Assembly (NCBI RefSeq): GCF_036370855.1
Contig: NC_088102.1
Span: 43,375,835-43,439,834 of the forward strand
From: Dromaius novaehollandiae
Lineage: Eukaryota; Chordata; Aves; Casuariiformes; Dromaiidae
Direction of reading: 5' to 3'
Length of the DNA stretch: 64,000 bases
Of the stretch, positions 1,282 through 64,000 are shown piece by piece; within the stretch, counting starts at the first letter, position 1; each line of letters opens with the position of its first letter. The notes beneath the pieces were generated by a model. The model ran no database searches. It saw only the letters and a list, made by a program, of their open reading frames with translations, and was not told the origin of the DNA. The translations under genes were made by a program, and so were the position numbers.

Positions 1282-12515
<11,234 letters not shown>

Positions 12516-13800: not shown

Positions 13801-13809
13801 TGCAAATAA

Positions 13810-29312: not shown

Positions 29313-32300
29313 TGTCTGTCATAAAAAAAGAAAAGTGCAACATTGAGGAGTGTTAGGATTTTGATGCATTGACATTAATTCTTGTTCCAGTATTTCTGAC
29401 TCTGTTCAAGTCTGCTACACACTGAAAGAGTCCCTACTTTCAGTTCTCACATATACAAGTACAAAATACAAGAACTGGCAATCAGGGCCACCAAAAATAA
29501 CATAAAATGCCTATAAATTAAGGGAGAGTTGCATGCAGTCATTGGACTAAGGTTCCTTTTTATGCCTTGAAGAAGAATAGTCTTTAACTCTTGCTTTTTG
29601 AAGAATAATTCATCTGCAGTAATTCAGTCATAAATAAAAGTTTCAGAAGATACTACACAAAGTAATTATGACACAAATAGTTAAAACTTATTAATGCCAC
29701 TTTCGAGTAAAATATAACTATATATTAAAAAATATAGTTAATAAAACTATACAAGTTATGTAAATGTTTATATAAGGCACATATAAATAACGATGTATAA
29801 CGAGTTATGTAGGACTCCAGCAGAATGCTATGATCAGTGAAATTGCATGTACACATGAAGAACTATTTAGAGCTCTAAAGTGTTTCTGCAGGACTTTGAG
29901 AGAGCGCCTTTGTGGAGATAAATGAACTTTGACTCTGAGTTTTAAAAGACCGTGTGAACAGTGGATGTTTTCCCATGTCAGAACTTACCTTGACTTCATT
30001 GAGAGAACTGCTGCAGTTTTCAATGATCTTTTTTTTCCTCTCAATGTAGTCAGCAATAGACTCCATTTTCTTGAAGTGAGCCTCATGTAACTTTTTGAAG
30101 TCTAAGAAGTTCCAAAAATAGGAAGAGTTACATATCTGATAAGATCTTAAGAAAAATTACTATTAAATAGAACAGAAGAAGCTTGCAACACCTATCACTA
30201 GGGGCTAGGAGAAAATATAATGCCACCTTTAATGAAAGGCTGTGTATCCACACGCAATGAAACACAAAATGAAATAGCATCTACTTCACCAACTATTTAG
30301 CCAGCTATGTGATGCATGTTCTGCAGAATTCTCTATTTAAAGAGAGAGAAAGAGAGAGAGAAAAAAAAGAGAGAAAGAGAGAGAAAAAAATTCCTTTATC
30401 TTGTGATCCAAAAACTTTAAATGCATGTCTGTATTTTACAGTGATCAAAATGAGCAAATATATGGTAATGCAGCACAAGAGAAGTATTTACAAAGTGAAA
30501 GCTAAACAAGTAGGAATCACAGCACATCTTGCTGCTCTTTGTTTTTTTGGCCACTGTGAATACAAGTAGTATATCCAGAACACATCAAAACTCTCAATAA
30601 ACCACTTTTAGATTAGGTACTTAAGTCATTTACTACAATAAATACACAAGAAACAATTAGAAAATAAACCTCCCAGTGTAACCTTCTAGAACCTTTCTTT
30701 TTTTCTTTATAATTTAAAGAGAGGCTGTTCTCTTTTTCAAGTGAAAAAGAGAAGTTTGATTCATAAAAATTGTAGGGCAAGTCTCCTTTCATACACAGAC
30801 AATACATCTATAAATAGAGATGGTAGGTATCTTACTTGGCGTGGTAGCTTTCATTCCTCTTTTCCCAGACTTAGATCCACGGCCTACATATAAAGGGATC
30901 TTCCCTCCTGCGGAATGAGCTAGAAGAGCATCACCTGGGGCAGCGAGATTAGGAAGGTGGTTAGAACTATGGGGCATTAATTTAGCATCATTAAAGTCTG
31001 TTTTGTAAAGCTAATTAAACCTCAAGATATGCTTTGGAGCATATGCTTCTAATCTCCTCAAAGTACCTCTTTGCTATGAGAAATAAAAAGTCAGCTAGAA
31101 TGAATTTGTCCTTAGTCTCTAAAAGCCTTTTAAATGGTGTATGTCAGTAATGACACGTCCTGGTGAACTACAAGCCCAACATGAATCTCAAAGTCAAGCT
31201 AGGTTATTTTGTTTTGAATTATTGCTTCCTGTATTTTATATGGAAATTCAGCAAGAAAATTTTGCTTGTTAAAACTTAAAAATCACTAGCTTATTAAGCA
31301 GATAAAGACCTTCTGTGAATTTAAAGTTTTGATACCTGATAGAATGAACACTCTTTGGCAAACTTTTCGGCCACTGACTTACCTATACACAGAGCATGAG
31401 TTCTTTTTATAATTTCTGCTCTCAGGTAAGCTTTTTTTTAAATTTTGTCTCTACCTGTGTTTTTAGTATGGTATTAAATTTATGTTATTTTAGTTCTTCA
31501 TTAATTATATTTCATTTAAAAAAAAAAAAAGAAATCAACTACAGTTTTCAGGTTGAGTTCAGGAAGTAGGAAAAGAAAAAAAAAAAAAAAGAAAAAAAAA
31601 AGAAAAAAAAAAAAGAAGCCTGAGGAAGAAAGTTCTCCATTTCTTGCCTCTTTCCAAAGAGGACAAGTAGCATATCAGTGGTATCCCTAAAGGCGCTGAT
31701 CCTAAACAAGGTTCAAGATTCAAATACACTTGGATCTTTGAGAACTCCTTCACTAAAAAAAAAATCAAACAAGACCACACTTCTCAAGTCAAAGCCAGCA
31801 GAACCACTATACTGCAAATTATGTGGACTTTTTTTACAATACATTAAGCAAACAAGTACACAAGCCCAAATTACACAGATTCTTTTTGGGTATCCCCAGT
31901 AAAGTACAATTGGTCTATCAGATCAGCAGACATTCCACAAAATCTCTGTGGGCACAATCAGATGCACTTTTTTGTTAATTTAAGTAGTATGAATGACTAA
32001 ACTTACTCTTTTGGAGTAAGTTTTTACTTACATTCCACTCCACTTCTTTTAGTGGAAATCTTCTCTGGTTGCTCTTTCTGCCCCATACCCATGCCTGAAT
32101 TCTCAATAGCTCTCTTTTTAGTTACTGGTTCATCATTTTGGAATACTTTCTGACCCTTTTCATGCTGGGGCATTTCATTTTCTTTCATTTCTGAATGCTC
32201 CTGTGGTTTAAACATACGTTGGTTAGGCAGATTATTCCAACTGCATATCAGGACAGACTTCTCACTCTGAGGACAGTCAGTCAGTGGAACAGGCTGCCCA

Positions 32301-36397: not shown

Positions 36398-36788
36398 AGC
36401 GGCACGATCACCGCCGCCCGCACCAACCGCCGCGTTTCGAATCTCGCGCTCAACTGACACGGCGCGTTGCCCCGCCCCCACCATTCGAACTGGCCCGCCG
36501 CGCCCTTCCACTGGCTGACCTTGGCGAAGGGGACGGGCCTGGGGGCAGAGCAACCGCCAATGGCGGCCCGGCTGCAGTGTTGTGTTTTTTTCAAACGCGA
36601 TAGGTGCTCCGGGCAAGGGGAAGCCCTGCCCCCTCTTGCCTGATTGGGCGGTGGAAGGAGCCAATCCAATCCTCAGGCGGCGAGGATTGACTCGTCTCTC
36701 GCCCAGTGGTAACGCAGAGCTGTGTTACCACTCTCCAATGGGGAAACCGAGAAGACGGGTGCTGCTCTCGAACACAGGGCGGGAGAAG
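36398..36788. promoter_or_regulatory. NUSAP1/OIP5 bidirectional promoter with NF-Y and CHR motifs
   Basis: Only 391 bp separate the two start codons, so the genes must share a promoter. CCAAT boxes lie at 36557-36561, 36661-36665, 36666-36670 and 36735-36739, and an inverted one (ATTGG) at 36643-36647. Cell-cycle homology region (CHR) matches are TTCAAA (inverted TTTGAA) at 36590-36595 and the TTCGAA variant at 36436-36441 and 36484-36489. NF-Y with CHR is the known layout of G2/M genes controlled by DREAM and B-MYB/FOXM1, which fits both products. There is no TATA box. The motifs are seen; the regulation is inferred. Confidence 0.8.
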
Positions 36789-39700
36789 ATGGCGGTGCGG
36801 CGGCGTCTGCAGGAGCTGTTCCAGGACCCACAGCTCGGCGGCGTCATCACCGTGGAGCGGCCGCTGCCACCGCCGCCCCCCGCAGCCGCGCGGGTCCAGC
36901 AGCCGCCGCCGGCCGCGGGCTCGGTGGGGGCGCCGCGGCGGCTGCGGCCGGAGGAGTGGGCCGTGTTCCAGTGCCGCGGCTGCCGGGCGGTGCTGGGGGA
37001 CTCGCTGCACCTGTGCGCGCAGGAGGAGCGGCGCCTCGGGCTCCTCGCCTGCCTCAGTCAGTGCCGGCGGGGCGGGGCGGGGCGGGGCGGGGGGCGCCGC
37101 CGCCGCTGCGTGTCGCTGGGGCCCCAGCGCGGGTCCGGGCCGGCGGGCCAGGGCGATGAGCTTTTACTAATGCGGGTTAATAGCGACGTGGAAACTTCCA
37201 CCCGCGTGTTATAAAAGGGCCTGCTGTGCGCCTCAGCGGGTCTCTGGGTCGCCTGCCGCGCCGGGGGGCGCTGGGCGACCGGAGTGGCTTTTCAATGTCT
37301 CCGTCTTTCTTTGCAGAAGTCACGAATGACGTTGTTTGGGAAGAGTCGCTAATGATCGGCCTTGAAGGAGCCCTCCTAGGGTGGTAGGTAGTGGACGTAT
37401 CTCTTGCTTTTGGCATCACGTTTTAGTCGTCAGATGAAATATACTGACAAAACCAGGCCTCTCCAAAGTCGGAGGCAAAGAGTTCCTGAAAGTGTTCCGG
37501 CTTGTGCGCTGACACGTCTTGTGGAATCGATAAAGTCCTAAGTGATTTTTGGACCTGTACTTCATAACTTTCAAATGAAAAATCTTTTGTACACATATAG
37601 CTTTAACTTTCATCAAAATCAAAAGAAGTTTTTTCAGCATTTACCTTTGTTAGTGGGGAGAGAGGAACATTTGAGCAATGCAGTAAAATGTAGCCTAGCC
37701 TTTAACTCTTCTTCAGCTCCTGCCTTATAAAGCATATATTATCTAAATTAAAGCATGCCTTTTCATATACTGAAAGTGAATAACTTCTGCTGTTCTATTC
37801 ATTAGCCAATCAGTAAGAGGTAGCTTTGGTAAGTCTGGAATTAGTCTGATGAGAACGAAGTAAGATGTTACTTGAAGACTGGAAGAATAGCCACCTATTT
37901 GCAAATTCGGTGAGAACTAATAGAATCAGTATTTAAATGTTGTTTAGAAGGTTATTTCACAAGCCGCAAGGGCTAGAAACTTTCTAAAAGAAAGATTTGC
38001 ATTTTTCTCTGCATGAGGCAATAATCCATTTTATCAGGAGGAATTTTTTCATCTACCTACACAGCCTATCGCATGTAGAGGTTTGGGCACAGGTATATTG
38101 TACTTTTTTACTGGTTAAGTCATATCTGACTAGTATAGCTTAAACCACTCTGTGGTAATGAGTCTTTTATGTTCTTCTCTGATTGCAGCTTCACTTATTA
38201 CAGAAATTACTTCTCACACAACATGCCCAACTTCTCATGTTCCCCTCCTTTCTGTGATTGTTTATATATAAAGAAAAGTAACATCACGCATTTTGTTTGC
38301 TGTTTTGGTAAAACTGATAATCTGATGTCCTCTGACTAGCAGGCAGTATCTATGGTTTTAAAAGCTTCTGTTTAAACATATTATTTTTCCTTTTCTCCTT
38401 TCAGCACTTTCAATGCATTATTCTGTCGTTCATGTGGCTTGATTGTGGGCTTCATTCTATATTCTACTTTCAGTGATCTGGCTTATCTCCGAGGCTTCTT
38501 CTGTTTCTTCAAGGACAGCATCCTTTGGTGAGTATGCTGTTTTATTATGGTAAATGACTTCACAGGAGTTTGCAAGTGATTAAAACAGCTGTTTTACTTT
38601 TGACTGAGTGCATTCATGCATGGGTTTTAATATTCTCTCTATTTAAATTGCTCATGTTGGCACAATTTCATTTGATTTGCCTTATGCTTTTAAAGTGTCC
38701 TCATGTAATGTCAGGGATTAAATTTAGTTGCTTGCTTCACTTCACTTCCAGATCCACTTAAGTAATGTAAGGTTTCAAAACAGTTCCGTGCTAGATTGAA
38801 GACTTGATTATAGAAACTATAAATTACTTTCAGTTGATGATGAGAGATCTTATGGTTTTTAAAGTAAAAGTATTGTTATAAATATTTTCATAATGTATTG
38901 ACTACTTCTGACAGCACTTTTAGGATCTGCTTTAAAATTGTCTTAAATAATCTGTCTAAACAATGAATGCAACCATGTTACTTAAAAAGTGTTTTTCTTG
39001 TCTTTCCCCTTTCCCCACTTGTCTTCCAGTTATCTCTTAAAAAATAAAATGATAATAGAAGCCTCTAAGGTAAAATTTCCTGCTTTGAGCCTAAAGGAAG
39101 AACTCGGAAAAGTAAGGTTTCTACATGACTTTGTATGTAAAATGCAAAAAATGCCAAGTCTTTTTAGAGATCGGTCCAAAAATATTGATACTTTTTTTGC
39201 TTTTTTGTTTTTAAGTGCAGGTGATGTAGAAAATACTGGATTATAATGTAGCTATAATACATGTGCAGAGCATACAAAACATTTTCTGTAACAACTTATC
39301 TGCAAAACATATAAAGTTCTATCTAACTTTCTGATAAGTATGTTACCCTGTGGTGAATGTTCATGTTTTTGTGGTACCTGAATGTCATCAAGAGAGAAAG
39401 GATTTCTCTGCATCTTGAAAAGAAAAACCCAGAACTGTTCAGAAAGCATTCAGCTAAGTATTACTAAATGTGTTGTCCCTAGGATTGATAAGTCACTTTT
39501 GCAGAATAAAAAAATACCCATTTGTTGATTTTTAAAAGGATTCTAGCACAGTCTTGTTTCTGGCTATGTGAGCTCAAAACAGCTGCAGACTCTTGAAAAT
39601 ATCCACTCTCCTAACCAGTTTTGGTAACAAAAATTCTTAAGAGAATTAATCCAAATCTTTCCATTTGTCACAGAACTATCCTTTTGGGGGATCTTAATGT

Positions 39701-40592
39701 ATTAGGCAGCAGGTCAACAGATGCCTTCTACAGTAGCCATCTCTCTTTCTGCTCCCTTTACTAGCTGTTCATGAATCTAACCTTTCTGGTAATAATGTTA
39801 CCTAGGGAGAAAAAAAAATCCGTGCTTTCTTAGTAGGTCATACATTTGCAGCATTTCTTTAGGGAAAGAGTGCTTGATTTTTCACTCCAAATGCATACTT
39901 TATTTTTATGTATGTTTGCCATCTGTTTCCCCACTTCCTTCTTTTACATTCCCTTCAAAGCACATATTCCATCTTGAGTAAAAATATAATATAGCAGATG
40001 AGTATTTTTAGGTGTACTCCTAAGCAAAGATGAAACAGTCTGTCCAGATCTTGTCAAAAAAGTTATCTGGCTTTGCTAAACTTGTAATGAATTAACCGGG
40101 AAAGATTATGTTGGTCTTAGTAAGGCTTCAGCAGCTCTTGCTGCTTACTTAAGTGGAAAAGTTCTATGCATCTCTGAAAGGGGTTCTGCTGACATATGTT
40201 CATCTCGTGTAACACAAGCTTCTGATTTGGGTGCTAGTTTTGGCTGTGCTAAACATACAGTATAGAGATATGCCATATTAGATACTAGTGATACAATAGA
40301 GCCCAGTATCACTTTCCATCTTGAAAGTCAGCTGCTTTTTAGCTACTGAAGGTGGGGTATACATCTTTCAAGGACCCAATGTTAGGACAACATTTTTCTG
40401 TTTTTTTTTTTTTCATTATTTCTTTTTTTCTAGCTAAAAGAAAAGCTTGTGACGGTCCACATGCGCCTAGAATTGCTGATGAAGAAGATGGAGGAATTGA
40501 ACCAAAAGAATAATGTGGCAGAAAAGCAAAGCACTGCATCAGATGCAGCTGGCCTCATGCCACGATATGCAATAGTCAAGATGAACAAATAA
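36789..40592 (+). CDS. OIP5: OIP5 (Mis18-beta), centromere CENP-A loading factor
   Basis: OIP5/Mis18-beta pairs with Mis18-alpha and M18BP1 to license centromeres for HJURP-mediated CENP-A deposition after mitosis. Coding exons: 36789-37056, 37317-37383, 38405-38527, 39030-39111, 40434-40592, totalling 232 aa (human 229). The split codons join in frame (A|AA, TG|C, TG|T). The Mis18/Yippee zinc fold is clear: CxxC at residues 62 and 65 (VFQCRGCRAVLGDS) and CxxC at 119 and 122 (ALFCRSCGLIVGF). A C-terminal helix (LRLELLMKKMEEL-type, about residues 181-210) suits the known Mis18 oligomerisation coiled coil. The N-terminus is proline- and alanine-rich and poorly conserved. I chose ATG 36789 for its strong context (A at -3, G at +4); an in-frame ATG at 36738 overlaps a CCAAT box and is weaker. 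Identification is very secure. Confidence 0.96.
37057..37316 (+). other. OIP5 intron 1, very GC-rich with (GGGGC)n array
   Basis: A 260-bp intron between A|GTCAGT and TTTGCAG|AAG. Positions 37067-37095 hold a run of GGCGGGGCGGGGC units, giving several Sp1-type boxes and G-quadruplex potential on the coding strand. Confidence 0.85.
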
Positions 40593-43500: not shown

Positions 43501-45580
43501 TTGTTTTAGTGGAACCTAATCTCTAGCTAGGCATCTTGAGAGATGTGTTCTTACTCTGCTAAGTGCAGCTGGACCAGTTTGGCTCAGGAAGGATAGATTC
43601 TATTTAAATGAATGCCAGCTGCTTAAAAAGCAAGTCTCAAGGTCAGGCCACAGCTATTTTTATTCTTATATGTGCTAACCTGCAGCTATCTTCTCTGGAA
43701 CTGTATTCCTAAAGACAAAAAACTGTATTCCTACAGACAAAAGCGAGCAGAAAATGAAACAAATTAGGTGATTGAGAAGGCTACTGAAGCAACAATCCTA
43801 CTGCGTAGCTTTTATAAGCTAGTGTGTAAGGGGTAGCAATCTGTAACAGGTTTTGGAAAGCATGCAGCAGGCTTGGGAGGCATGGCCGCTTCAGCACATG
43901 CGAGGTGACGTCCTGCTACTGTGTTACAGCAATTCTGAAAACTGCTCTCAGCAGCAATTGCAGAGAAAGTTGTGCTTGCCTCTAGGCTGCCACATACATA
44001 CCCATCACAGAAGGAATTTGGGGGAAATATAATTGCCAAAACAACAAAAATGTGTGAAACAGTTTTTCCCAGGGACTTATTACTGTTTAGTCAAGCTTTT
44101 ATATAAGCAACAGAAGTTTTCTGCTACCATCTAAAACAATCCTTAAAGCTTTTATTTGGTAAGCTGCCCATCTTAATATGATTAAAGTGCCAGACTTCCT
44201 TAGCTGCCTCCCAGAAGTCAAGAGAACTCTTCTGTGTGAAGTCTCCTGGAACAGCTGGACCAAAAGCAGATATCAAGCATATGTAAGTTAGTCCAAATTG
44301 TTAAATTCTGACAAAGTTACAGCAAGTGACAACATGTCTTAGAAGTGGAAGCGGTTAGCAACTCCATGAAGATGCAGTGTATAGTGACTTGGTTAATTTT
44401 TCTTTTGAACAAATGACACAAGAAGTTTTTAGTGCATTCTCAGCCTGTGCTGCTTTATTGCTAAAAAAAAATTTGTATACAGGTGCAGAGTTTCCAAGTT
44501 CATTTTTAAACAGTTCCTCTTTACGGTGTCAAAAGAATAAAATCTTATCTCGAAATCCCCGAATATGCATAGATATAAAAGCAAGCTGCCTTTTGGAAAA
44601 ACTTTAGAATTCACAGGGAGACATTCTTGTACTGTTATCATGTAAAACGTGTGCAATGGGAGTACATAGTTCATAGTGATACCAGTAATTTCCTCCACTA
44701 ACCCATGTAAGCATGCCATCAGAAGCCCCATATAAGAAGTGTTCTCTAACCTGGTTTTTAGGTATTAACATAACTCTTAAGAATCTGCTACAACTGTCTA
44801 ATACTTCTCTTCTGCTGCTACATCATACTTTTCAAAAGGAGGATAGCTTCACTGAAGTCCTAAAGTACCTTACTTCCCCTGGTTTTGTATTGAAGAGGAT
44901 AAGCATTAAGAATGGATACAACTACTTACTCTTCACATGAAAGAAAATACATTTAACAGGGTTTAAGACCATGCAAAGCATTCTGTAGAATATCAACCAG
45001 GTTTTAGATGGCCATTGTTAACCACCGGGCTAAAATGGTTTTACAAATTCCCTTTTTGCTTGAAGTTGGCTCAAAGGATTTCATTTAATCTAGTTTCTGA
45101 TACTACAAAATAGTTATCTTCTTTTCATATTCCAATCTTCATTTGGCAATTTTTGTGTATTGATAGAAAGGGCATTCATGAGGAAAACATGGTCCCTGTT
45201 CTAAACCCAATGGTGCTTTGTGGATGGTTGGCTAAGAAGTGTGAATGGGAATTAACTTGACACATAATTTCTTCCTCTAAGACCCTTACTCTTTCTATTT
45301 AAGAAGGCTGAGCCTCAAGTACATGGAGGAATGTTTGCACAAGTTAAGCCCACCTATAAAATTAAGCTAAGCTAGAATTATGGAATCCTGCAGTAAACAA
45401 ACTAGTATTCTACTTGTTTGAATACTTCAGACTAGGAAAAGCATTAGTGATATAGGCTATGCCACAGATTCTATGTTATTTTCATACTGCCAGCAGAAAT
45501 TCACTGCATCACCCACTAAAAGACTTGGGAAATAATACAGAGAACACACTAAAAGTTTACAGAAAGATGGCACCCAATTT
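40593..45580 (+). other. OIP5 3' UTR and downstream spacer
   Basis: No canonical AATAAA was found close behind the OIP5 stop codon, so the transcript end is undefined. A GC-richer block at about 41020-41400 stands out from AT-rich surroundings and may be an old transposon. A 22-bp tandem duplication lies at 43701-43744 (unit CTGTATTCCTAMAGACAAA). At 45585-45606 a minus-strand signal (TTTATT) and a plus-strand AATAAA sit back to back. No protein-coding exon is recognised. Confidence 0.5.
43701..43744. repeat. 22-bp tandem duplication, two copies
   Basis: CTGTATTCCTAAAGAC and CTGTATTCCTACAGAC copies in direct tandem, nearly identical, in the OIP5-to-Cyrano interval. Confidence 0.85.
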
Positions 45581-45584
45581 CCCT

Positions 45585-45606
45585 TTTATTTAATAAGTGA
45601 AATAAA
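45585..45606. terminator. Back-to-back poly(A) signal candidates, both strands
   Basis: TTTATT at 45585-45590 (AATAAA on the minus strand) and AATAAA at 45601-45606 on the plus strand. This could be where convergent OIP5 and OIP5-AS1 transcripts end, but such hexamers are common in AT-rich DNA and I have no other support. Confidence 0.2.
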
Positions 45607-48600
45607 GAAAAAATATTATATTGCAACCTGTGTTGCAGAAGATAAAGACCTCCAGTGATCAAATCTCATTTTCTGTTTTTAAAAATCTCTTTTGTCAAAG
45701 AACTTAAAAAATATACAAGATAACCAGTATTTTCAGGTTCATTCCTGCAGATGCCATTATTGCTGGCTGATACCAGTATGCTTCAGTACAGCTGCCTATG
45801 TGGCTAGAGTTACCTGAAAATACTGTCTATTAAAAAGCTGTTCAACACCTGAAATATATGTACTGTGCTTATTGATTTCAGTCTTCTCCAAATAATTTCT
45901 CTCACCACACCCAAGCCTTTTACCTACTGTCTGGCAAATAACCACTCAATCTGAGTCTGTTGTTTCTGTTACTGTGGTTTTTTTGTTTGTTTTTTTCCAT
46001 GAGTTGCTTCCCCCCTGCACCCTGTGAGAAACTCTGCACCCTTTTCCTTGCTACAGCTGCAGCAGGTGAGAAACCTCATCTCGCCCCTAAACATGCTTAG
46101 TTCATGCCCTGCTTTTTACATGCCCAGGGCACTAATGTGAACCAGACAAGAGGTTATAAAGGCGAGTTCTGCTGATCCTGGTTCCTGATTTGCTGTTTTG
46201 GTGCCATGCTTCTGTCCCTATCTGTACATTCTGCCCCTTTCTCTACAGGAGCAGTGCATTCTCTAAAAACAAAATTTGAGAATCAAAGCAGGAAGTTCAA
46301 GCTATTGGTATATTAATTCCTATTGCTTCATTATGTATAAATGCATATCTCAATTTACTGGTAATAACTACATTACACTAGACATTTTGAATCATGCATA
46401 ATTAGAATACTAACTCTAAGATTTGGTTTGTGGGCCTGTGCTACTTTCCTTCAGTTTCTCCATACAGTTCTTCCTTCTAAGGCATCACAAAGAAGCCTTC
46501 TTTTATTGGACTTGCAAACATGCTCATTTGGAATGGAAGAGAAGCAATCAGGATTAACACAGGACACACTAGGTAGTAAGTTACGTTACCTTTTATCTTT
46601 AATAGTAGATGTTGTAAAGTCTTAGGGAATCCGTACGATAACCTGGTACACAGGCTCAGTGACAGAAACACGTTCCTTCCCTAAAACTATTGGTCAGTAG
46701 AAAGTGCAGAGCAGACTGAAAGAGTTCAGAAATCCATAGTTAGTGTTCTGCACTAATAAATGAGATGCCCTGGTTCCATTGCTGGCTTTTGTGTGCTAGT
46801 CAAAGTGCTGTAGGGGCAATATGCTGGATCATTCATTAGAAGAAATCCAAAGGTATCTAACTTGAACTGCCATTATGCAGCTCTGTACCTGAACAGCAAG
46901 CAGGATTATTAGGTTTTGAAGGAAGACCAGACAGTTTCTTAGAGAAGTGGGGAAGCAGATATTTCAAAGATTGGTTGTTCATCAAAAACTGTTCTGCTCT
47001 TCCATATTCTTCTCTGCCCAGAAATACACTGCCAGCTCTTGTCAATGTACTCCTTGTGTAAAGTGTTAGTGTCCTGGAGCTTGATACAATTTTTTCTCTC
47101 AATATTTAGGAGTCTTTGCAAGACTTTTTTTTGTTTCAAGTCCTGAATTAACAATTACCTTCAGAAGAAGTTGCAATTCCCAACATAATTACTGACTAGA
47201 CCTTCTGCAGCAGCACCACTGGGTAAGGAAACTATATACATGCATCACCTAAGCTTAGTACTGCTAAAGGAGTCATGTCTTTAGTGCACACTACATATTT
47301 GATATCCCACAGTGAAACATAGTAGCCTCTGACATTTCTGCTGAGTTTTAGAAGCAGTGAAATCAAGGCCTTGGGGGCCACGTCACACAATAGTTCAGCA
47401 GCTGTAAGGCAATGGGATTTCTGTTGCTGCCGTGAAACATAATTTCTAGTCTAGTAGCCCACAGAGTACAAATCATTATAAAATCTGAACTGGGATGCAT
47501 ATGTGGACAGCTTGCCTGGCTACTGCAGTCTTATTATTTTCCCCTTCTCTAAATGAATAAAGCCTTGAGGAATTCTATTCAGTCACAAAATTTATACTTC
47601 TGAAGCATGAACATGACCATGTTTTCATTATTATGCAAGTATATTTGATAACCACTGACCAGAATGAATTTATAACTTATCTAGTACTATCTAATAATTA
47701 AATTAAGGTTTCCTATGGCCAGCTTCCAGTTTTATCAATAATCCAGTAGCTGGAATTTAAGCTGATTACAACCTTCCAGATCAATTAGCTTTTCATATGC
47801 ATATTACATATTAGCTAACACCTAATGTAGTCATCCTCATGTTTATCTTGGTTACTTTAGACTGTAAAAATGCTCACAGCCCTCACAGTCTCATTATCAA
47901 CTTATGACGAGCCAAAGGATTTCACTTAAAGTAATTTTAGAATAGTAGCCTCCCTTCAGATATAAGTTATGGTTCAAATTACTTCACCTTTCTAGAAGAA
48001 ATCCAACCAGACAGAGCTACATCTCTGATGTAATAGTTCTGTTCACAAGAGTATTATGTATTGGGCCCTACTGTCTCTACAGACTACATATCTACACTGA
48101 AAACGGAGTATCAAACAGACTACTTAAAAAACAAACAAACAAAAAAAAACACGAACAGAGGCTACAGCTGTAGATCAATACCCCCTTCTGTTTAGAGGCT
48201 TCACAGCACTTGCCTCTCCAAAACTTTAGACAGAAATCAACCATGGTCTAAAACAGGGTGTTTAGCAAGTCCAAAATTACTTTTGCTGTAAAGTAATATT
48301 TTTAGAATCCTACAGTTCTGTTTGGGAAGTAAAAATGTTTCAAGTGTCAAGTGTTCTCCAATAAACTTTTTTTTTTTTTTTTAAAAGACCTGTCACCATC
48401 TCAAATTGGTCTTTTTAAACAAAGAAAACAAAAAGCACTTCATGCAATAAAATGCCTTCTAACAACAGAACCAGGTTCTCTTCACAGTTCAGTACTTGGA
48501 AGGGTTCAGTTTTACCTCAGAGAAACAGCAAGTACTAGACTACAAAAAAGAAAAACAAAATAGGGTAACTTCACCCATACTTTCAGAAAGAACTGCCTGC

Positions 48601-49632
48601 TCTTCCTCAGCACACCTTGATTCAGACATGTGACAAAACTAATCAATGTTTTTCATACCAGGTTCATTAACAAAGCATTCAAGTGCGAAGTTCCCTCCAA
48701 TGAGAGGAACATTAAGAGAAATTTACCCATCTTCTTAGGAAGAGACTTATGGTGCAACTCCCTGCAGCACAGAACGCCACAAACTTATTTGGTTATTACC
48801 CACTTATTCTACTGTACAATCTTGCTAATGCAAGTTATTTACTTTATTTACTATCACATGCAAAACAGTTATTGCTACTAAAGTTCTATTTTTTCTTATT
48901 AAATCATCTTATGGCTTTGTTTGCATCAGGGATTCTTCCCCCTACATACTGTGCTATTTTGCATTCCAGTTTCAGAGGTATTTTTCAAATAATTCTCCCA
49001 AGCACTAAACTACTTTATTCAATGGTACAGCTACACAGCTTCTTTTGTTCAGAACTGAACCTAACTCCAACGACAGGTCCCCCAGACCTCTGCTGTAAAT
49101 GGCCCACCTGCCCAATTTTCTTGGAGATGTAGTAAATGCATTTTTTTTTGTTACATACATTAACTCTGCAAGTATTACTGGTTTTGCACCCAAGTATACA
49201 CTGCTTAATTACTTTATACTTATGTTAAAATTACAAAACCAAGCTACTCATTCCCTCCCTCCCCCTAATGGCCATTTACAGGCAGGTCTCAGGAAAAAAA
49301 GATGCAGTATCCTCTCTAAGCTGACAGAGAATTTTGTTCTTATAAAAGAGAGAAATGGGTGAAAAGAAACACTGCCACTGAATAAAACACTTTTTCCTAG
49401 GAAATCAAGAGGATGCCATCTACAGAGCATTGCAAATCTTAGGGATCATAACAGTCTCTTATTTGACCAGTCCAAGCTGCCCATTCAGTACTAAATCATT
49501 TGGACTTCCCGTGGTCTAAACTTTCCTTCTCAAAAAGCAGAGGGAGAGATGAAAACTATTAAATTTGAGATTAGAGGTGGAAAGCAATACTAGAGGTTAT
49601 CCAAAATACATGGTATTGAGTTCTCAATAATA
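45607..49632 (-). other. Probable 3' part of the OIP5-AS1 unit or downstream spacer
   Basis: AT-rich DNA with no coding exon recognised. A 7-mer miR-7 seed match is present on the minus strand at 46920-46926 (GGAAGAC on the plus strand). Whether this stretch is transcribed cannot be told from sequence. Confidence 0.35.
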
Positions 49633-49826
49633 CAGGGGTGGGGAATCTATGATCCGTAGGCTAAATACAGCCTACTGAACAGCTACAGTCCGCAACATTG
49701 ACTTTTAACAGCCCTTGACCTTATTATATTCTCCCATGTTATTATTAAGATGTGTGTAAATGCAGGATCCACCAAAGGTGTTAAGAGATTCAATAGGACT
49801 TCAGCAAAAAAGGTTTCCAATTCCTG
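49633..49826. mobile_element. hAT-type non-autonomous DNA transposon relic (MITE), 194 bp
   Basis: Starts CAGGGGTGGGGAATC and ends GGTTTCCAATTCCTG; the ends match as imperfect terminal inverted repeats at 10 of 15 positions. It is flanked by an 8-bp target duplication, CAATAATA (49625-49632) and CAATAATG (49827-49834), 7 of 8 identical, as expected for hAT. The interior (GATCCGTAGGCTAAATACAG and CAGTCCGCAACA) recalls Charlie-like elements with GGCCCGCGGGCC cores, decayed at CpGs. No transposase is present. It lies within the likely OIP5-AS1 transcription unit. Confidence 0.7.
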
Positions 49827-50459
49827 CAATAATGGATAAAAGTTTTCTACGTAAAATTAGCAGATAGCATTTTGCAACCATTAATTTATAAGATGATGAG
49901 GCTCATGTTTAACTTGTTATAACTATATAGTCAGATCTGCAAAGTTGTTTTGACTTAATTAACAGAGTTTGTAAATGATAATCTTAAGGTAGCAGAGATG
50001 TGTACAAAATGCACACTAGCTCTTTAGCATATTCATATTTTCTGAGTATATCATAGGATGGGTAGTAATAAAACTGAAAATGCTGCTCGTGGAAGAAATC
50101 ACCTTCACTAAAGACTAAAGAAAAAAAACACCACTGGTAAAGAGATGAGAATTCTGGATGCTTACATACAATAGTTTACTATTGCAGTTGGACAGATTTA
50201 CTAAAAAGTCAACTATGATTCTATGAAGCCCATTAAGTGAATACATTCCATTTCTAAAGATAGCATGACCATTGCCAAAGGGAGGATACTGCATATTTAG
50301 ACCATGTTTGTGACATTTTTACTGTATCCTTTCTATTGTTAATTACATTATCACTGTTTATTAATAAATTTGTCACTCTGAAATTGTAAAAATACTACTA
50401 GGCTCATGCACTGATCCTAACATGGCACTACAGTTTGCTACAAAGCACTAATGCTTATG

Positions 50460-50530
50460 GAACTATACACATCTCAAAATGGAAGACATTGGTGATTTTG
50501 TTGTTTTCAAACAACTTGTAACATCATTTT
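50460..50530 (-). ncRNA. OIP5-AS1: OIP5-AS1 (Cyrano) lncRNA core with miR-7 site
   Basis: Cyrano is a conserved vertebrate lncRNA that triggers target-directed decay of miR-7. On the minus strand 50504-50480 reads ACAACAAAATCAC, CAAT, GTCTTCCA. Against mature miR-7 (UGGAAGAC UA GUGAUUUUGUUGU) this gives eight seed-side pairs, a short internal loop, then thirteen 3' pairs, the architecture known for Cyrano. The gene lies beside OIP5 on the opposite strand, as in human and fish. The transcript probably begins in the CpG island near 61 kb and ends below 50.4 kb, with this element in the long last exon. I could not define the last exon's borders; minus-strand AATAAA candidates lie at 50357-50362, 48843-48848, 46502-46507 and 45585-45590. 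Open frames across this element are spurious. Confidence 0.93.
50480..50504 (-). promoter_or_regulatory. Extensively paired miR-7 target site (TDMD element)
   Basis: Complement of miR-7 nucleotides 1-8 at 50480-50487, a four-nucleotide central loop at 50488-50491 facing two miRNA nucleotides, and complement of the miRNA 3' part at 50492-50504. Such central-loop, fully paired-tail sites direct ZSWIM8-dependent miRNA decay instead of slicing, as shown for Cyrano in mammals. Confidence 0.93.
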
Positions 50531-53500
50531 GTCCACAAGTATTAAAATATATATATGTATATATATATGATCTATTGCACATGCCCCTTATTTTTGTAAT
50601 CTTTCACATGGGAAGATTTCCAGCCAACATAGAGAAACAAAGTGGAGCAAGAAAAAGTAAGAATGCTGAGGCAGCATTTCCTAACAGCAGTTTTATATAG
50701 AAGCTGGCTGGAAAGATACGGCAGTGGGGGTCTCTAGGGCATGCACTACTGGAGTACTATTTCTGTGAAAGCCACAGATCTTTAGCCCTGCTAAAATATG
50801 TTATGATCTAAAATTAAGTTTAAAAACTAACATTATCACATCATCAGGGATAGGAGAAGTCAGGAAAAATCAATAGCTCTATTTCTTTGTTAGAATGCAG
50901 GGTTATAAAATGTTGAGTTACTCCTATGGACATGGCATTAAAGAGCTTAAGGTGTGTTTACTCTCTAATCAGAGTTCTGTACATACCCGCAGAAAAGAAA
51001 AACACATTCCTGTACCCCATATATTTTGTCACCAAGCTGTGCTAGAAACAGCTGCTAGCTCTAATGTCCAAAGGATAATGAGTACAGGTAGAAGAAAGAA
51101 AAAGAAATTCCCAGATTTAGGAACAGATGTTTCTTATGCCAGATACCTTCCAACCTCATATAATCCTATGATATTGACAATATTTTCCATCACTTAGAGA
51201 TGGATCCTGCTTCTACAGACATCTACATTAAATCCCATTAATTTCAACATAAGGAGGACCTACAAGGAAGTGCATTTCTAGTTGCCTCTAAAACAGTAAA
51301 ATTCAGACTGTGTTCAGCAAAAAAATCCTACATTCTTAAAAGAAGTCAGGCGAAGTTTGTGGTTGCCTTGCCACAATTAACATGACTCTTGCACAGCTCA
51401 TCAGAGTGTTACCCACAATGTTAGTGCACCTCTGCTCATTACAATTGGCTTTGTTCTGACATGCAGTGTCTTGCCCACCACTCCTTAACTTATAAGCCTG
51501 CTCTTTTCTTCATGGAAACAAAAAATGGGTAAAGCTGTTATTAAATCTTGTTGTTACAATGCATGTCTAAATGTGGATCTAACTGAACTCTATTATAAAA
51601 GACCAGAATCAAAATCAGTATTTGTCCTCACTCTACTATGGAACTTGTTCCCCATTAAATTTCACTACATTTTAAATATCAGAATGCTGCCCTTGCAATC
51701 TATCATTAAGATCTATGAAGAATTTCAGCTGTTGCTTTTTTTCAGCCATTTTCAGGCTGTCTGGCTCTCTCCAGCAGTTTTCTAAAAGGAAAAATAAAAC
51801 AACTCCCCTCCCCAAAATGTCCCCCAGCCCTGCTACTATCCCCCCAAACCCTATTAACAGAACCTATATACCTTTATTTGATCCAAATTTGAAAATATTA
51901 TTTTAAGCTAGTAAGTCACATTTTCTAAATCACAAGCTTGGAATAAGGTGCACTAAGAAGAGCTCCAGATCAAAGTGGAATAGAATACATATCCTATTTC
52001 TCTTCTGGCTCTTTTGCCAAGAAATCATACTTGTCATATGTAATACCACAGCAGGGAGCAGGTGAGCATTATAAGCTCGCATCTCAGAATGGCAGAAAAC
52101 ATCCCAAATAATCACAAATGATGGAGACAAAGAACGCTATGCAAACATAAAAACAACAGATTGCTCCTTAGTTTGGGAACGAAATTCAGGAGGAAACAGA
52201 AAAAAAGCCCATGCTATGTATTTCTGCTCTTCAACACATCACTCTTAAGTGGCTAAGAGTTAATTCTATTAGGCCTATTTCTATCTGTATGATGGAAACA
52301 TGTAGGTCATCTCGGTTCTCCATCAGCCAAGCCAATTCCATCAGCAGTATGAAAAGCTGAAACTGTGCCAAGGAAGCTGAATGGATAAACTGGAGTTTTA
52401 CACCTCTGGTCTCTTCCATCATACTAGAAGAGAATTCCTTTAAGAAATAAGAGTTCTGCCCCATCTCTTTGATGGCAGAATGTTTTTGTTCCTTTTGCTG
52501 TTTAGGATTCTTAAGAAGCCATGGAGAGGGAATGATTTAACATAAACCCGATCATTATCCTGTAACTCTAGAGGTCTTTAAAGCTTCATTTTCTTCGTGA
52601 AAAATGAAATGTGCAGAGTAATTTCTCCTTCTGGTCAAAGCTCATCATATCCAGCACTTATGTGGATTTACACATGCACAGATATATTTTGATCACAGAT
52701 TGGGATGATGCATTTACACACTATAGACAAGGTGACTCTGCATTTGTTCCTTTGCATTAGCTGCTTTATGCGAGTTGACATCAAGACATCTATCTACAGA
52801 GTCAAGCCTGGGTCCTGGACTAGAAAATACCTGCTATGGGGCTTCCCCAATTGTTTGGTAGGTTTCTTCCTCATTTCAGAGTGGAAAGTATATTTCAGTT
52901 TTCCTGTTGTAACCTCTCATACACATCAGGACAGCCTGGCATAGCAAAGCACGCAGACACTTTATCTGATAGGCGCTCTAATATGACACAGCAAAGAATT
53001 TATCCCTCCTAAAATGAAGGAGGAAGTATCAGTGAAGAACACCGGCTTCTCCATACATTTGATTACAAAGTATTTCTCATTTTAAAACAGAATGCAGAAA
53101 GCTGAATGAAGAGCTGGCACAGGAGACAGTTCTTCAGGGAAACAAATGCTCACTTCTGATACTCTACTTTTGAGTTTTGGTAACATGGTGTGGTGCTTCT
53201 GTGGGAGAAGCCATCTGGTGACTCAAATGTTGGGTGAAATGATGGCAACAGGAAGTGGAGAGGTCTTTGTTCATTCAGCTCCATGGAAATAAAAGACAGG
53301 CTTTCTCTTGCTAGAAAAGAAAGATCTGCATCTCACAGCCTATGAGTAGTCACCAAGAAAAAGCAACAGGCCACCTTCTCAAATGTCAAGAGAAGATCTG
53401 GAATCCCAAAATGAAAAGCAGAAAAGGTAGTTTAGGAAACAGAATAAAATACATTCAACACCAAAATAACAAGTTAATTTCTTCAAAAGTTTGATTCTAA

Positions 53501-56500
53501 TGAGTAAAATTAGCTGGCTTCACAAACTGCAAGAATCCCTTGTTCTATAAGATTTTAAATTGCAGACGTTTGTAGGCTGGCTAAGAAAATACTATGGAAA
53601 TGCTGAGTTAACTTATAGGTTTACTCAGAAGCAATGCATTCAAAAATATACAGGTGTTAATTAGCTATGGGGTTTCTTAACTATGACTCTAAAAATAACA
53701 TGACAATGTTGAGGTAGCACCAGAATACACACTGCACACAGAGTGTATATTCTACATTAACAGGTCACAATTCAAAGATCACAGAGATTAGGCATTTTCT
53801 TTTACACATTTCTCCCCACTTGTCCACAATGTAGATATACTTTAACAACTGTCATCATGTCACTGCTCTCCTGGCATTTCACTTATCAGTGATACTCACC
53901 TGGTATGACCTAGTCCTGTACTGCAATGAGAGAAGTGTTTTTTCTTTTCCCTCTCCGCACTCTTTCTTTCACATACAAGAACATGGGCATACACAGTATT
54001 TTCTGCCCCTTTCCTCTCTTCTCCCTGACCTTTCTTTGCCTGTATTTCTCAACTTACTCCAATTACCTTAACCCTTTAGTTGATCGAGTTCTGAAATAAT
54101 CTTCCAGTGATAATTTTCAACTCCTATATTAGCAGTAGCAAGTAGATCATGAAAATGGATATACAGCACACATCACCGCTTTCTCTCTGAGGCACTCGAA
54201 TACTTCAGCTGATCATAAAGTTGGCCATCCGTGCCCACACTGTTGGGAAAGTCTTATTCTTGTTATGAAGGTGGGGAAAACCAGAGGCCTGGAGAGCTGC
54301 AACAAAACACGCCAAAGATTTGTGGCAAAGCTGAGAACAGAATCTAGCATTTCCTAACTCTAGTACGTATCTTAACTACCAGAATGCCTTTACTTATTCA
54401 CTGGACAAAAACTAAATCAAAGCTCCAGAAGCTGACTGTCATCCTTAGAAATTTTGAATTTACTTTTTTCTACTTGATAACTCATATTTTGACTGTTACC
54501 ATTCTTCTTATGCTACTGTTTAACAAATATAAATTTTAAGATGACTATTCTAAGCTAAATTTATACAATGTGTCTTTTAGCAGACTAAAATGACAGCATG
54601 AGACAAGTATTTCTTAACTTTAAAAGCATTAATTCTTTTTTAGAATACACAGTTAAATCAGGCTTTCTTTCACAAGAAGCCCAACCCAAAAGCTGACACT
54701 GGTAAAATCCTGGTGCTCTCAAAGTACCCTAAGAAAAATTAAAATCTCAGTGACCGATTTAAGTGGTCTGAAAGAAAGGGGAAAGGAAACAAGCCAAAAA
54801 TCTGAGAACTTTAGCACTTATCAGTATCCTGATTGCTTTACTTACCATTATTTGTCACCAACCAACAGTGAACCTAGACAGAAAGAGATGAACAAATAAG
54901 ATTAAATTTGCAGCTAACAAGCTATTCAGACGATAGAATACCTGCATAAGACACAGTAGATTAGTCATACCTTCCAGAAATCAGTTAAGACTTTTAGCCA
55001 TTCCATATAAACCATGCTGATGTTACTTTCAAATTATCATAGATGCCCTCTTCTTTTAGTTTAGGGGAAAAGATGGTCAAGCAAGTCAGGACTAACTCTG
55101 GAAGACCCAGGACAGACAGCTTTCTCTAAGAACAGGGTAGAGAGGAGGAGCACATGCCCAAAACATGCTTGAAAGGCTTTCGTTCGAAAGCCATTCTGTT
55201 TCCTAGAGTAAAACCATGCATGTCATTCCACAGAATATATCCTACAAAGTAATGAATTCCCTTCTTTCCTAGAATTTGTTAATTCTTACTTCACTGAGAG
55301 CTGCCAGTAGTACATGCTCAACTGACTACACCTGGAGACTTAAGTATCATTGCTACCCAAACTACTTTTTAATTGAGCATATTTTGAAAATAAACAGTCC
55401 TTTTTATGGTAAACTATCATCAACAGACATGTTCCAATTCCATAGGAACAGAGATGGACACAACAACTGCAGGCTCCAAGAAGACAAGGAGCTCTTTCAT
55501 GCTTGCACAGACCCACTACAGCGAGGAGGTGTAATACCTGTTTCTCAAGGACGCTCTGAGCTGACAACCTAACCACAATAATGGATTGCTGTAAGCAGGA
55601 CTATCTCATTATACAAGACTTACACGACTAAAAGCTCCCAATGTCCTCTCTGCAGTATTCCTAATTTCCATTTTCCTGCACCAGAGCATTTCTGCAAGCA
55701 GTAGAGCACCCCCACTTTCACAAAATTGCTGTCAGCAGGCAATCCTTAACCCTGTGTTTCAGGCCAGTCATTCCATCCTTATGGTGTCAAGTTCTGACCC
55801 CTCCAATTCAAATCCTCCCCAAGAACCTAACAAGCACTATGTCACCTTGAGAGGTTGGCAAATCAATAGCAAGTCATTCACAAAACAATTAATTTGATAA
55901 AGAAAAGTTATCATGAACTCTCACATGCTTACTTATGCTAGTGGAAACAAAAGACAATCCCCAATGTCAGTCTTTGAAAAGTTAGGTTTTCTTTTACTCC
56001 TTCAAAACCTGCGAATTACTCAACTAAATACTACATTAACTCTTATTATAAAAAGGCAGCAAGTGACACTTAAAGCAACTCATGCAGAGGAAATGCTTCG
56101 ACCAATACTGAAATTCAGTTTGCTTTAATCCATTTTTTGAGAAGTTCTTTGATTCTGGATGCTTCAGTTTCTAACTACTCTGCTTGATATACTTTCTACC
56201 CAACTTTCATAGATGATGCGAGAGCAGAGCTCACACTAGTATCAACAGAACTTGAAAACGCAACCGAGGTTCTTTAAAATTAGCGGGGACTGAAATTGAC
56301 AGTGACAGTATCCACTCCATAATTAAAATCTAGTGGAAGCTTTGGCTTATTAAAAAGACTAAGTTTTTTTGTTTCATAACTGACTGACTGCACACATAAT
56401 CAACTGATCTGGGACAAGAAACTGGTTGTGAAAACTCCACATTATACTTATTAACCTTTTCTGTTAAAATACTTAAAAATATATTTTATGCAGTTTTTAC

Positions 56501-59902: not shown

Positions 59903-60229
59903 CTGAAAAGGAAAAAAAGTGTTTTTACTAATACTCTTTCACGTTTCGTTATATGTAAGGTCCTTTTCACCTCGTTATTGTCGGTAATCACACGAACTCA
60001 TAAGCCTACGATCAATTCCACTGTCAGCATCTCTTCGCTCTCTGTAAAACTTCCTTTCCGCTGGGAGCTTGCTCATACCTTGTGATTCTGTTCGCCAGAT
60101 CGCTCGGCGGTCATCCCCTTTGCGCACTCCAGCCAGTATGACATACAGATGTCAGAAAAGGACGCAACTACTCACATTATCAAGTTAACGAGAGCTAGTA
60201 TACAGACTCCATGAGCAAGGGAGAGAAGA

Positions 60230-61680
60230 GAAGAGTAACGCAGCGCTATTCCTGCAGCCCGAGCGGAGAAGCCTCGTTCCCCATTACGCGCTTTGATTTC
60301 TTTCCCACGCGCCCGCGGCCGGCTGCAGCTCCTCACCGCAAACGCGCTCCCGGCCGCGGGTGCCCGAGGCGCGCCGTACCACTACGCAGGAAACCCGCTC
60401 CCGCGGCCATCGGCGGCAGCCGCCGCGCCGCTCGCTCGCTGCCCGCTCCGAAGTTGCTCCGACTTCCCCGCGGCGGCCCGGAGCGCTGCCCGGCAGTGGT
60501 CCCGGGGCAACGACCGCCACCACCCAGCGCCGCGGCTCCCGCCCCGGGGGCCGCCGCGGCGGGGAGGCCGCGCTGACCCCCCGCCGCCGCCGCACGCGCG
60601 GCCCGGCCCGGCCCGGGGCAGGCGGCGCGGGCGAGAAGGAGGGAGAGTCTGGCCGGGCCGGGCCGGAGCCCGCGGCGCCCGCGCAGCGCGCCTCAGGCAG
60701 CCAGGGGGCGAGAACGTGCCCGGGCCCAGCCCAATCAGGGAGAGGCGAGGGGAGGCGGGTGCGCGGCGCCCGGGCCCAGCCCAATCAGGGAGCGGGGCAG
60801 CCGGCGCCAGGCTGGGTGCGGCCTCGCACCGGGGCCGTTGTTCCCGCCGCACTCACCTGCGCGCGGCCGAAGCCGCCGGGCCGCGGCCGGCCCCGGCCCC
60901 GGCCCCTCCCGGCCCCTCCGCCTCTTCCTCTCACTCCGCCATCTTCCCCTCCTTACCTCGGCCACCCGCCGGGGGCCCGCAGCGCCCGGCGACGCCGGGC
61001 CCGCCCACTCGAGCGCAAGCCTATTGGGTGCCGCTCCTATGCATCTGCCGTCCACTCTCGGCGATGATTGGCCATCGGCGACATCCATCAGAGGGGCCTG
61101 CCTCCCGCCTCCGAGGCTCTCCTTCCCGATTGGCCCCTTGGAGGACACACGCCTGAGAAAGGATTGGCTAAAGCCTCGAGAGCAGGGCTGGCCTGGGGCT
61201 AATCCTCCGGTGACCTCGACGACAATTTAAAGGGGCCGCCCGAGGAGGGCGCGCGCGAGGCGCTAACGGCAGCACCGCGAGCACGGCGGGGGGCGCACCG
61301 CAGCGCAGGGCCAGGCAGCGCTGCGCGCCACTGGTCTGCCGGCTCCGGCCCGGCCCGGCCCGGCGGCCGTCGAGCTCCGCCCGTCCTAGGCTCTGCCGGC
61401 GCCGGAGCGCGGAGAGCAAACCCGGGTCCCGCGTGCCCCTTCCGGAGCTCCCTGCCAGCCCCTCTCCCTCCCGTGCCCTCGCGGCACCACCCCGCCGGCC
61501 GGTGGTTCGTTAACGGCCGGCGGGACAGTTAGCGGCCGTTAGCGACCGGAGCCTTCGCGGCTAGGTCCTGCTCCCCGTCCTCCATTTCACTGCGCAGCAC
61601 CGCGGCCTCCCCCGCGGGAGGGGCGGCGAGGTGGTGGCCGGAGCCGCACGCCCTCCGGAGCGGGCCTCGCTGTCAAGCGA
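60230..61680 (-). promoter_or_regulatory. Large CpG island, likely OIP5-AS1 promoter, with NF-Y array
   Basis: About 1.45 kb of CpG-rich DNA. Minus-strand CCAAT boxes (plus-strand ATTGG) are at 61023-61027, 61067-61071, 61129-61133 and 61163-61167, and plus-strand CCAAT at 60731-60735 and 60781-60785, the last two inside a duplicated 25-bp word spaced 50 bp. Three MYB-type YAACNG cores cluster at 61511-61541. Long open frames on both strands are composition artefacts. A plus-strand transcript from here is possible but unsupported. Confidence 0.65.
60857..60960 (-). ncRNA. OIP5-AS1: Candidate first exon of OIP5-AS1
   Basis: A consensus minus-strand donor, GCAG|GTGAGT, ends an exon at 60857. 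Upstream on the same strand, AAGATGGCGGAG (near 60937-60948) matches a YY1/initiator-type motif, and its ATG is closed after three codons, which suits a non-coding transcript. CCAAT boxes lie further upstream at 61023-61167. The 5' end is a guess. Confidence 0.45.
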
Positions 61681-64000
61681 TGCTAATTGCGCGGAATGAC
61701 TGCCTTAATTCACTCTGACAGGTTTTGTGTCATCTGCAAAAACATTTTTTTAACAACAGTAATTTTACACTTCAAGATGACTGATGAATACGGTGAACAG
61801 TGTGAAGAGGAGTACTTACCCATTCAGAAAACTCTCGAGAAACACCCCCATTTAACAGCGATTCACCACAGACAACTACTACAAGCCATTTCAGTTGAAA
61901 ACTTCATCCATTTAATGCACACTTTTCTACTATGTAGTGCTTTTTAATTCAGACTGTCGCATTAAATGAAACACTTTAGCCAACTTAAATATTACATCCA
62001 CACATTATTTACAACTGAAATTGTAATGTCAAAGAATTGACAGCAGACCTTTAAAGTAATTTTTCATTCAAAAGTTATAGAAACTAACATTATTTTTATT
62101 CCTGTTCTTTATGATTCAAATCCTGTATTCAGATTCTGTTATTTTGCCCAGATCTGATGCCAAGTTAACAAGCCTACAAGTCTTCAAGTCAATTCATCTG
62201 CCCCCTTTCAGCACTGATTAGCTATTAATCCTCTTCCAGATTTCTGTAGTCTTTATAGTATTCCAACAGTTAATGAAAACTATTTGTAACAACAAGTTTC
62301 TGCAGCCAATCATTTCAGAGATCCTCAGTGTAAGAAATTGGGGTCTGCTGATTTGAAAATAGATTTTAATTTCCATTTACCATTAGACTGGAAAGCCCTT
62401 TTTAATTCCTATCCCTCATACTGCTTTTTCAAAAGATGGAGCAGAAATATTCAATAGTTTTGCCTTTAAGCTGATGTTCTTATCTCCCTTCCAGATTTTA
62501 ACATTCATGGATCACCTTCATTGTCAAGAAGACTTAAGGATAACTTCTACAAGCAAGCGGGTACACTAGAAATATGGCTTTTGTGGAGATCTGCTTACAT
62601 CTGTAGCGATTAGTTTTGTATGATCGTCAATCCAACATAAACTTAAGATCTTTAAAACATCTCTTAATGTCATACATACCTAATATGTAAATCTCAGATA
62701 ATCAAATGTGACACTCAGTTGCAGACAGCAGGAGCTGTGAAACTAGAGCACTATGCTTTTCTTCGTATTTTCCTCTCAGTTTATCCTTAGATGGCTAGTA
62801 ATGGGCAAATTCTTGTTAAAGCTTTTCCCTCAGAAAGGCTACTAACAATATTTCTTAATCAGATCTTCATAAAGCAAGGTAAGAACTTAGCATCTTGAAC
62901 ACTCACCTATCTTTGAAACTGGTGTGTAGACTTTGTAAAAAAATACTATGAACAGGCATAAACACACATGCTTATATTTGTCCTTCTATAGCTTTTCATC
63001 CCATGCGTCTACCAGGTGATTACACAGCTAACAAAGTTAAATTCTGCTGGTTTAAGTGTCTTTTTTGTTGTTGTTGCTGTGCACGTATTAATAGTATTTG
63101 GGTTCACCTTAAAGTACATTAGCAAGAGAATCTGTCCATATAAGCCCCTAGCTTAGAAATCAGATTTCTCAAAGTAGTATTATTGGTATTACACTGGTAT
63201 GACACACTTCAAATAGAACAGCACTGTGAAGGGGGCAAGGAATTTAGTCTGGAACCATGGACAAGTGTAAAGCTTCATACTGCAGTACTAGGACTGAACT
63301 GTCCTCTTCCAGATCTTATGTTTTGCACTAGCTTCTTCACTCCACCAGTGGAATGAAGGATTTTTGTTAGCTCGGTTTAAGTGATTAAGTGATAAAAATC
63401 AAACTGTAAGGCCTGCTAATAGTAGTATCCTGGTATTTAACTTTTCCAGTCATTAGAAGATAGTCAGTTACCAGACAGAAATAGTTTTTACAGTGGAGGG
63501 TTTATTTATGGATTGATTAATACAATATCCAGTCTCACCATGACAATAAGGCACAACTGTGGGTTACAACTATATAGCCAGAAAGGAAGAGAACACCACC
63601 TACTTTTAATAAGCAGATCACAATGCCTACAAAAACTTGTGTATTTTTAAATTTAACATTGTTACATTCCTATTTAACATGACATGGTCATAAAATCAGA
63701 ATGTTTCTTTCTCATATAGAGTAAATATTTTTAATTTACATTTCGTTCTAGACTTGTTATGCTGCAGTCTGCAAAACAACAAAGTGCAATGTTTCACTTT
63801 GCAATTCCTTAATTTAAAACAAAACAGAAATCCTCCAGAGACTTGCACAGTATTCTTTACCACAGATGATGATTAAAGGAACTGAGAAGAAAGGAAATGC
63901 ACATTTGAGGGTATAGTTTGAGACTGGTAAGTATTTATAGAAATGTTAACATGTGACATAGAGAAGCAGTTATAACACTGATTCTTCAGTAAAGAATCTC
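61681..64000. other. Right-hand flank, no gene recognised
   Basis: AT-rich sequence without a recognisable exon. By synteny the next gene should be CHP1 on the minus strand, so part of this could be its 3' UTR or spacer. Minus-strand AATAAA candidates exist (for example TTTATT near 63501-63508), but nothing confirms it. Confidence 0.3.

Follow-up and report, generated by a model that had tools for sequence, protein, structure and literature searches.

The DNA analysed here, referred to as the window, is a stretch of 64 kb of the emu genome in which genes follow one another in the order RTF1-NDUFAF1-NUSAP1-OIP5-(Cyrano)-CHP1, the parentheses marking the predicted long non-coding RNA (lncRNA) with which this analysis is concerned. 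The positions of all features are listed in Table 1. CHP1 lies on the minus strand just outside the window and was recognised by its matches to solved CHP1 (E-values of 2.3e-21 and 4.2e-13). When ten open frames were compared with Pfam, exon 1 of OIP5 taken alone and the third NDUFAF1 frame stayed below the cut-off and four more had no family above it, two of which were placed as RTF1 by the PDB search. The first 170 residues of NDUFAF1 are identical to those of both emu records and differ from those of cassowary, kiwi, tinamou and brush-turkey. Three CpG-rich stretches (11751-14500, 35501-37500 and 60001-61750) occur where the head-to-head RTF1/NDUFAF1 promoters, the head-to-head NUSAP1/OIP5 promoters and a Cyrano promoter are respectively expected.

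The OIP5 gene, which encodes Mis18-beta, had to be identified from its spliced exons because its single exons give weak matches in the PDB (E-values of 0.33 and 0.019 to Mis18-alpha and of 0.48 to Mis18-beta). Its five exons encode 249 aa in the window. These match the record of emu Mis18-beta isoform X2 (P0123) exactly, except for 23 residues at the beginning of exon 3 (38405-38527) that are missing from the record; they form part of the zinc-binding Mis18 domain, and an inner CAG of this exon is a possible alternative acceptor.

The putative Cyrano locus is found beside OIP5 and downstream of CHP1, on the same strand as the latter. The original prediction had placed it at the syntenic position of OIP5-AS1, and its location between the convergent OIP5 (plus strand) and CHP1 (minus strand) bears this out, the order used for comparison being OIP5/Cyrano/CHP1, which we take to be that of the human genome. 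In zebrafish, oip5 is also described as the neighbour of cyrano (PMC6347452).

Table 1. Features placed in the window, with their strand and the basis of each placement
Feature	Position	Strand	Remarks
RTF1 exons in open frames	9751-9620, 1483-1208	minus	PDB search, 5.3e-16 and 2.7e-14
NDUFAF1 exons in open frames	16029-16673, 18550-18741, 21216-21353	plus	PF08547, 5.9e-13, 9.2e-13 and 0.21 (third)
NUSAP1 exon in open frame	29878..30156	minus	PF16006, 9.2e-18
OIP5 (Mis18-beta), convergent neighbour	36738..40592	plus	spliced exons 1-3: PF03226, 5.4e-25
OIP5 exons	36738-37056, 37317-37383, 38405-38527, 39030-39111, 40434-40592	plus	stop included
Predicted first exon of Cyrano	60857..60960	minus	ends CAG/GTGAGT, donor GT begins at 60856; 5' end is a guess
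Element 1, ATGGCG	60937..60942	minus	near 5' end, in CpG island; letters from PMC7798263
Predicted last-exon body	44430..50706	minus	holds all elements except ATGGCG; prediction only
Element 2, TGTGCAATA (miR-25/92 seed match)	50573..50581	minus	letters from PMC7798263
miR-7 site of TDMD type	50480..50504	minus	duplex prediction: 8 pairs, 2x4 loop, 13 pairs
3' pairing block ACAACAAAATCAC, an element	50504-50492	minus	pairs with miR-7 nt 11-23; letters from PMC7798263
Loop CAAT	50491-50488	minus	opposite miR-7 nt 9-10
8mer seed match GTCTTCCA, an element	50487-50480	minus	pairs with miR-7 nt 1-8; letters from PMC7798263
Element 6, TGTATAG (Pumilio-type site)	50463..50469	minus	letters from PMC7798263
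TGCATGA (Rbfox motif WGCAUGA)	50404..50410	minus	letters from PMC7798263
CTATGCA (miR-153 seed match)	44566..44572	minus	letters from PMC7798263
GCAATAAA (poly(A) signal and miR-137 site)	44454..44461	minus	predicted 3' end of transcript; letters from PMC7798263

The site complementary to miR-7 had been located by the original prediction at 50480..50504, and inspection of the minus-strand letters showed these coordinates to be correct to the base. From 50506, the minus strand reads AA-ACAACAAAATCAC-CAAT-GTCTTCCA-TTTT. When aligned with mature miR-7, whose letters, as used for all pairing at 50504-50480, are those that we presume it to have, the site offers eight seed-side and 13 contiguous 3' pairs, with nt 9-10 of the microRNA unpaired opposite four target bases; the pairing announced earlier, of eight seed-side and thirteen 3' nucleotides around a small loop, was thus recovered, the loop being 2x4. 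Position 50505 is also an A, so that 14 contiguous 3' pairs would form with a miR-7 of 24 nt whose last letter is U; the review PMC10899785 states "14 contiguous" 3' pairs for Cyrano and miR-7. According to the same review, triggers of target-directed microRNA degradation (TDMD) are characterised by a seed match, an unpaired centre and at least 6 contiguous 3' pairs, all of which are found at 50504-50480. As expected of Cyrano, this extensively complementary site lies within the conserved core. A 19-letter stretch of it, in DNA and RNA letters and on both strands, gave no match in a paper-text search.

Several in silico estimates bear on how readily such a site could arise. In a scan by 36-nt windows with a step of 6, the duplex at the site (-28.6 kcal/mol, RNAduplex) was the strongest that miR-7 forms on either strand of the window, the next distinct one on the minus strand reaching -23.3 kcal/mol (at about 24970) and the best on the plus strand -21.1 kcal/mol (at about 9775). 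None of 60 mononucleotide-shuffled miR-7s, scanned over 61000-44400, attained -28.6 kcal/mol (best -24.4), and a looser bipartite pattern, ACAAAATCAC N0-12 GTCTTCC (10+7 letters with a gap of 0-12), arose in one of 400 single strands of 64 kb simulated with a first-order Markov model of 60000-44000. The earlier assertion that the match was very unlikely by chance agrees with both results. For a genome of 1.468 Gb and both strands, an independent-base estimate predicts 2.9 occurrences of the loose form and about 0.015 of the full 13+8 form. A whole-genome search of its own genome with the 130-base core returned a single match. Within the window, the 13-mer ACAACAAAATCAC has a single minus-strand copy and 0 on the plus strand, while the 8-mer GTCTTCCA occurs on the minus strand at 50487 and 55106 and on the plus strand at 39021.

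The 8-mers at 55106 (minus) and 39021 (plus) were discarded as no 3' pairing of the site's kind occurs in the surrounding sequence. The one on the minus strand is a second miR-7 8mer (55099-55106) devoid of TDMD-type 3' pairing, located in the region that separates the predicted first exon of Cyrano from the predicted last one. Weaker minus-strand seed matches at 46927, 50096, 46540, 57551, 41660 and 41275 were likewise rejected as decay sites for want of such 3' pairing, and the remaining miR-7 seed matches of the window were judged through the energy scan only.

An indication of what the locus is comes from its flanks. Their conservation with vertebrate Cyrano loci, whose absence had been named beforehand, jointly with absence of minus-strand transcription, as the refuting result, was found by means of published elements. 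Nine deep Cyrano elements are described as conserved in 17 or all 18 of the vertebrates studied, chicken included (PMC7798263), and our comparison covers the eight of these nine whose letters were read in that source (LncLOOM set). All eight occur on the minus strand, where they follow one another from 60942 to 44454 as published. Their spacing is also close to that given in PMC7798263: TGTGCAATA precedes the miR-7 site by 68 nt (about 60 published), with an AT repeat inside this gap, the Pumilio and Rbfox elements are 52 nt apart (about 55 published) and the miR-153 and poly(A) elements 104 nt apart (about 100 published). The core running from TGTGCAATA to TGCATGA has a single copy on the minus strand and none on the plus strand. 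A pair formed by CTATGCA and GCAATAAA at 70-130 nt, which is independent of the miR-7 site, was obtained in three of 400 simulated 64-kb strands. Because most of the elements are short and each recurs readily, with 2 to 12 minus-strand copies in the window (ATGGCG 3, TGTGCAATA 2, TGTATAG 5, WGCATGA 12, CTATGCA 3 and GCAATAAA 2), the weight rests on their order and spacing. The other two minus-strand copies of ATGGCG are both inside the CpG island at around 36.4 kb.

At the 5' end, ATGGCG opens a three-codon ORF (ATG GCG GAG TGA). The context of this AUG, GAAGATGGCGGA, is TISU-like and agrees in 11 of 12 letters with what we take to be the TISU consensus; the exact form of that consensus gave 0 matches, the perfect 12-letter context thus being absent from the 5' AUG. 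The published Cyrano 5' ORF has 2-3 codons (PMC7798263), and both the AUGGCG and an ORF of this size are therefore present in emu; a perfect 12-letter TISU at the Cyrano 5' AUG is reported in the same source, which does not treat it as essential to Cyrano.

Cyrano RNA is typically spliced, polyadenylated and enriched in nervous tissue. The predicted transcript contains both a splice donor and a poly(A) signal, and the 5' boundary of its last exon is uncertain, with candidate acceptors at 50707, 51781, 53008 and 53101. Over 50700-44430, the predicted last exon shows neither a coding signal nor a long ORF: the longest ATG ORF is 60 aa, compared with a simulated mean of 71, and at least 60 aa were reached in 217 of 300 simulations. 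Within 44430-50700, the Rbfox core GCATG occurs 13 times on the minus strand versus 3 on the plus strand, a count of 13 being reached in one of 300 simulations, and this strand bias is in line with the Rbfox motif enrichment published for Cyrano (PMC7798263). The minus-strand density of GCATG in the last exon (2.07 per kb) is not unique to it, the RTF1 part coming close with 1.74 per kb and the upstream part of the locus with 1.72. In this one sequence of the predicted last exon, neither the full WGCATGA (3 copies, a number that 45 of 300 simulations reached) nor the full Pumilio site (2 copies, reached by 57 of 300) is significantly enriched. Folding of the core (50590-50396), where a conserved fold would be expected of Cyrano, was, again for a single sequence, no better than that of shuffled versions (z of -0.48, 55 of 200 as good), and an Rfam scan of the 64-kb window returned no family at the gathering score.

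At the 3' end, two poly(A) signals face each other within 44454-44541, the plus-strand AATAAA at 44536 and that of Cyrano on the minus strand at 44459. If OIP5, whose coding part ends at 40592, used the AATAAA at 44536, the tails of OIP5 and Cyrano would overlap by roughly 100 nt; other plus-strand poly(A) signals lie in between.

Because eight ordered elements at near-published spacing coincide with OIP5/CHP1 synteny and with miR-7 complementarity, we hold with strong confidence that the minus strand at about 60960-44440 is the avian ortholog of Cyrano (OIP5-AS1), whose site at 50504-50480 is predicted to trigger target-directed miR-7 degradation. Judged from sequence, the locus very probably represents an ordinary ortholog of this well-studied lncRNA, not something new in kind. 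Cyrano is indeed known across vertebrates, chicken included (PMC7798263); the gene, the site and the mechanism are already well known. The original prediction had spoken of an otherwise unannotatable lncRNA: its identity as Cyrano stands and the word unannotatable does not, as six further elements, most of them short and individually common, together with synteny point to Cyrano without the miR-7 site.

That the complementarity to miR-7 merely arose by chance in AT-rich DNA is hardly credible. The surroundings are indeed AT-rich, with an AT repeat about 40 nt from the site, but the duplex energy was matched by none of the shuffled microRNAs, even the looser pattern appeared in just one simulated strand, and six further Cyrano elements are arranged in order around the site; ordered elements and synteny are here counted as already refuting such an accident. 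It is also very improbable, if slightly less so, that the conserved block was kept as DNA, for instance as an enhancer or other genomic element, with an incidental miR-7 match. Transcription of the emu locus is a prediction, which leaves some room for this reading, but the elements are of RNA type and all on one strand (poly(A) signal, miRNA seeds and motifs of RNA-binding proteins), and the Rbfox core differs between strands by 13 versus 3.

A further alternative accepts that the locus is Cyrano and proposes that the bird site only binds miR-7, as a sponge or an ordinary target, with no destruction of the microRNA. It draws on the fact that decay in birds is deduced and that, according to PMC10899785, most targets are themselves destabilised while only some induce miRNA loss. 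On the other hand, the geometry of the site (8mer, short loop, 13 contiguous 3' pairs) is that of the mouse Cyrano site reported to remove miR-7, and 13 pairs exceed the 3-5 supplementary pairs occasionally seen in targets (PMC10899785); a sponge should moreover need many sites, as argued in PMC11260338. We consider this alternative unlikely, and retain decay of miR-7 at the Cyrano site as the preferred reading.

By analogy with mammalian experiments, Cyrano RNA would be transcribed from the minus strand and bound by AGO-miR-7 at the predicted site 50504-50480, where the extended 3' pairing would draw the 3' end of miR-7 away from the PAZ domain of AGO; AGO would then be ubiquitinated by the ZSWIM8-CUL3 ligase and degraded, and the released miR-7 would be destroyed while Cyrano would be re-used. 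The Pumilio, Rbfox, miR-25/92, miR-137 and miR-153 sites would tune the Cyrano RNA itself. The mechanism and architecture of TDMD are reviewed in PMC10899785, in which the Cyrano site is reported to remove >98% of miR-7 in some mouse tissues. In human cells, added Cyrano lowered miR-7 and a version mutated at the site failed to do so (PMC7265490). Zebrafish without cyrano and its site are reported to have no overt phenotype, being viable and fertile with normal development (PMC6347452), so that the value of the site to the animal may be subtle.

With sequence as the only input, Cyrano landmarks have here been mapped to the base in a ratite bird, and a few published elements together with gene order proved sufficient to place this fast-evolving lncRNA. 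Since Cdr1as is reported to be eutherian-specific (PMC10899785) while the full miR-7 site is intact in a ratite, the ancestral job of Cyrano may have been to destroy miR-7 for the benefit of its protein-coding targets, with the Cdr1as loop added later in placental mammals, a proposal to which we give an even chance. If true, birds would be a natural place for reading out the older function of Cyrano. Should the report on Cdr1as hold, emu would offer a setting expected to be without it, where the original selective reason for destroying miR-7 could be sought.

Compared with published Cyrano/OIP5-AS1 (PMC7798263, PMC8764876), the emu locus shares the place beside OIP5, the strand, the 5' ATGGCG mini-ORF and, in unchanged succession at almost the same distances, the miR-25/92, miR-7, Pumilio, Rbfox, miR-153 and poly(A)/miR-137 elements. 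Nothing categorical differs, emu departing by its 68-nt gap with an AT repeat and by a TISU context one letter off the consensus that we assume. Among other systems, Cdr1as is a member of the same mammalian miR-7 network but has many seed sites where Cyrano has one extensive site. The triggers NREP/libra for miR-29 and Serpine1 for miR-30b/c would act alike, by seed pairing, an unpaired centre and extended 3' pairing; they are different genes with different microRNAs, and no homology to them is claimed.
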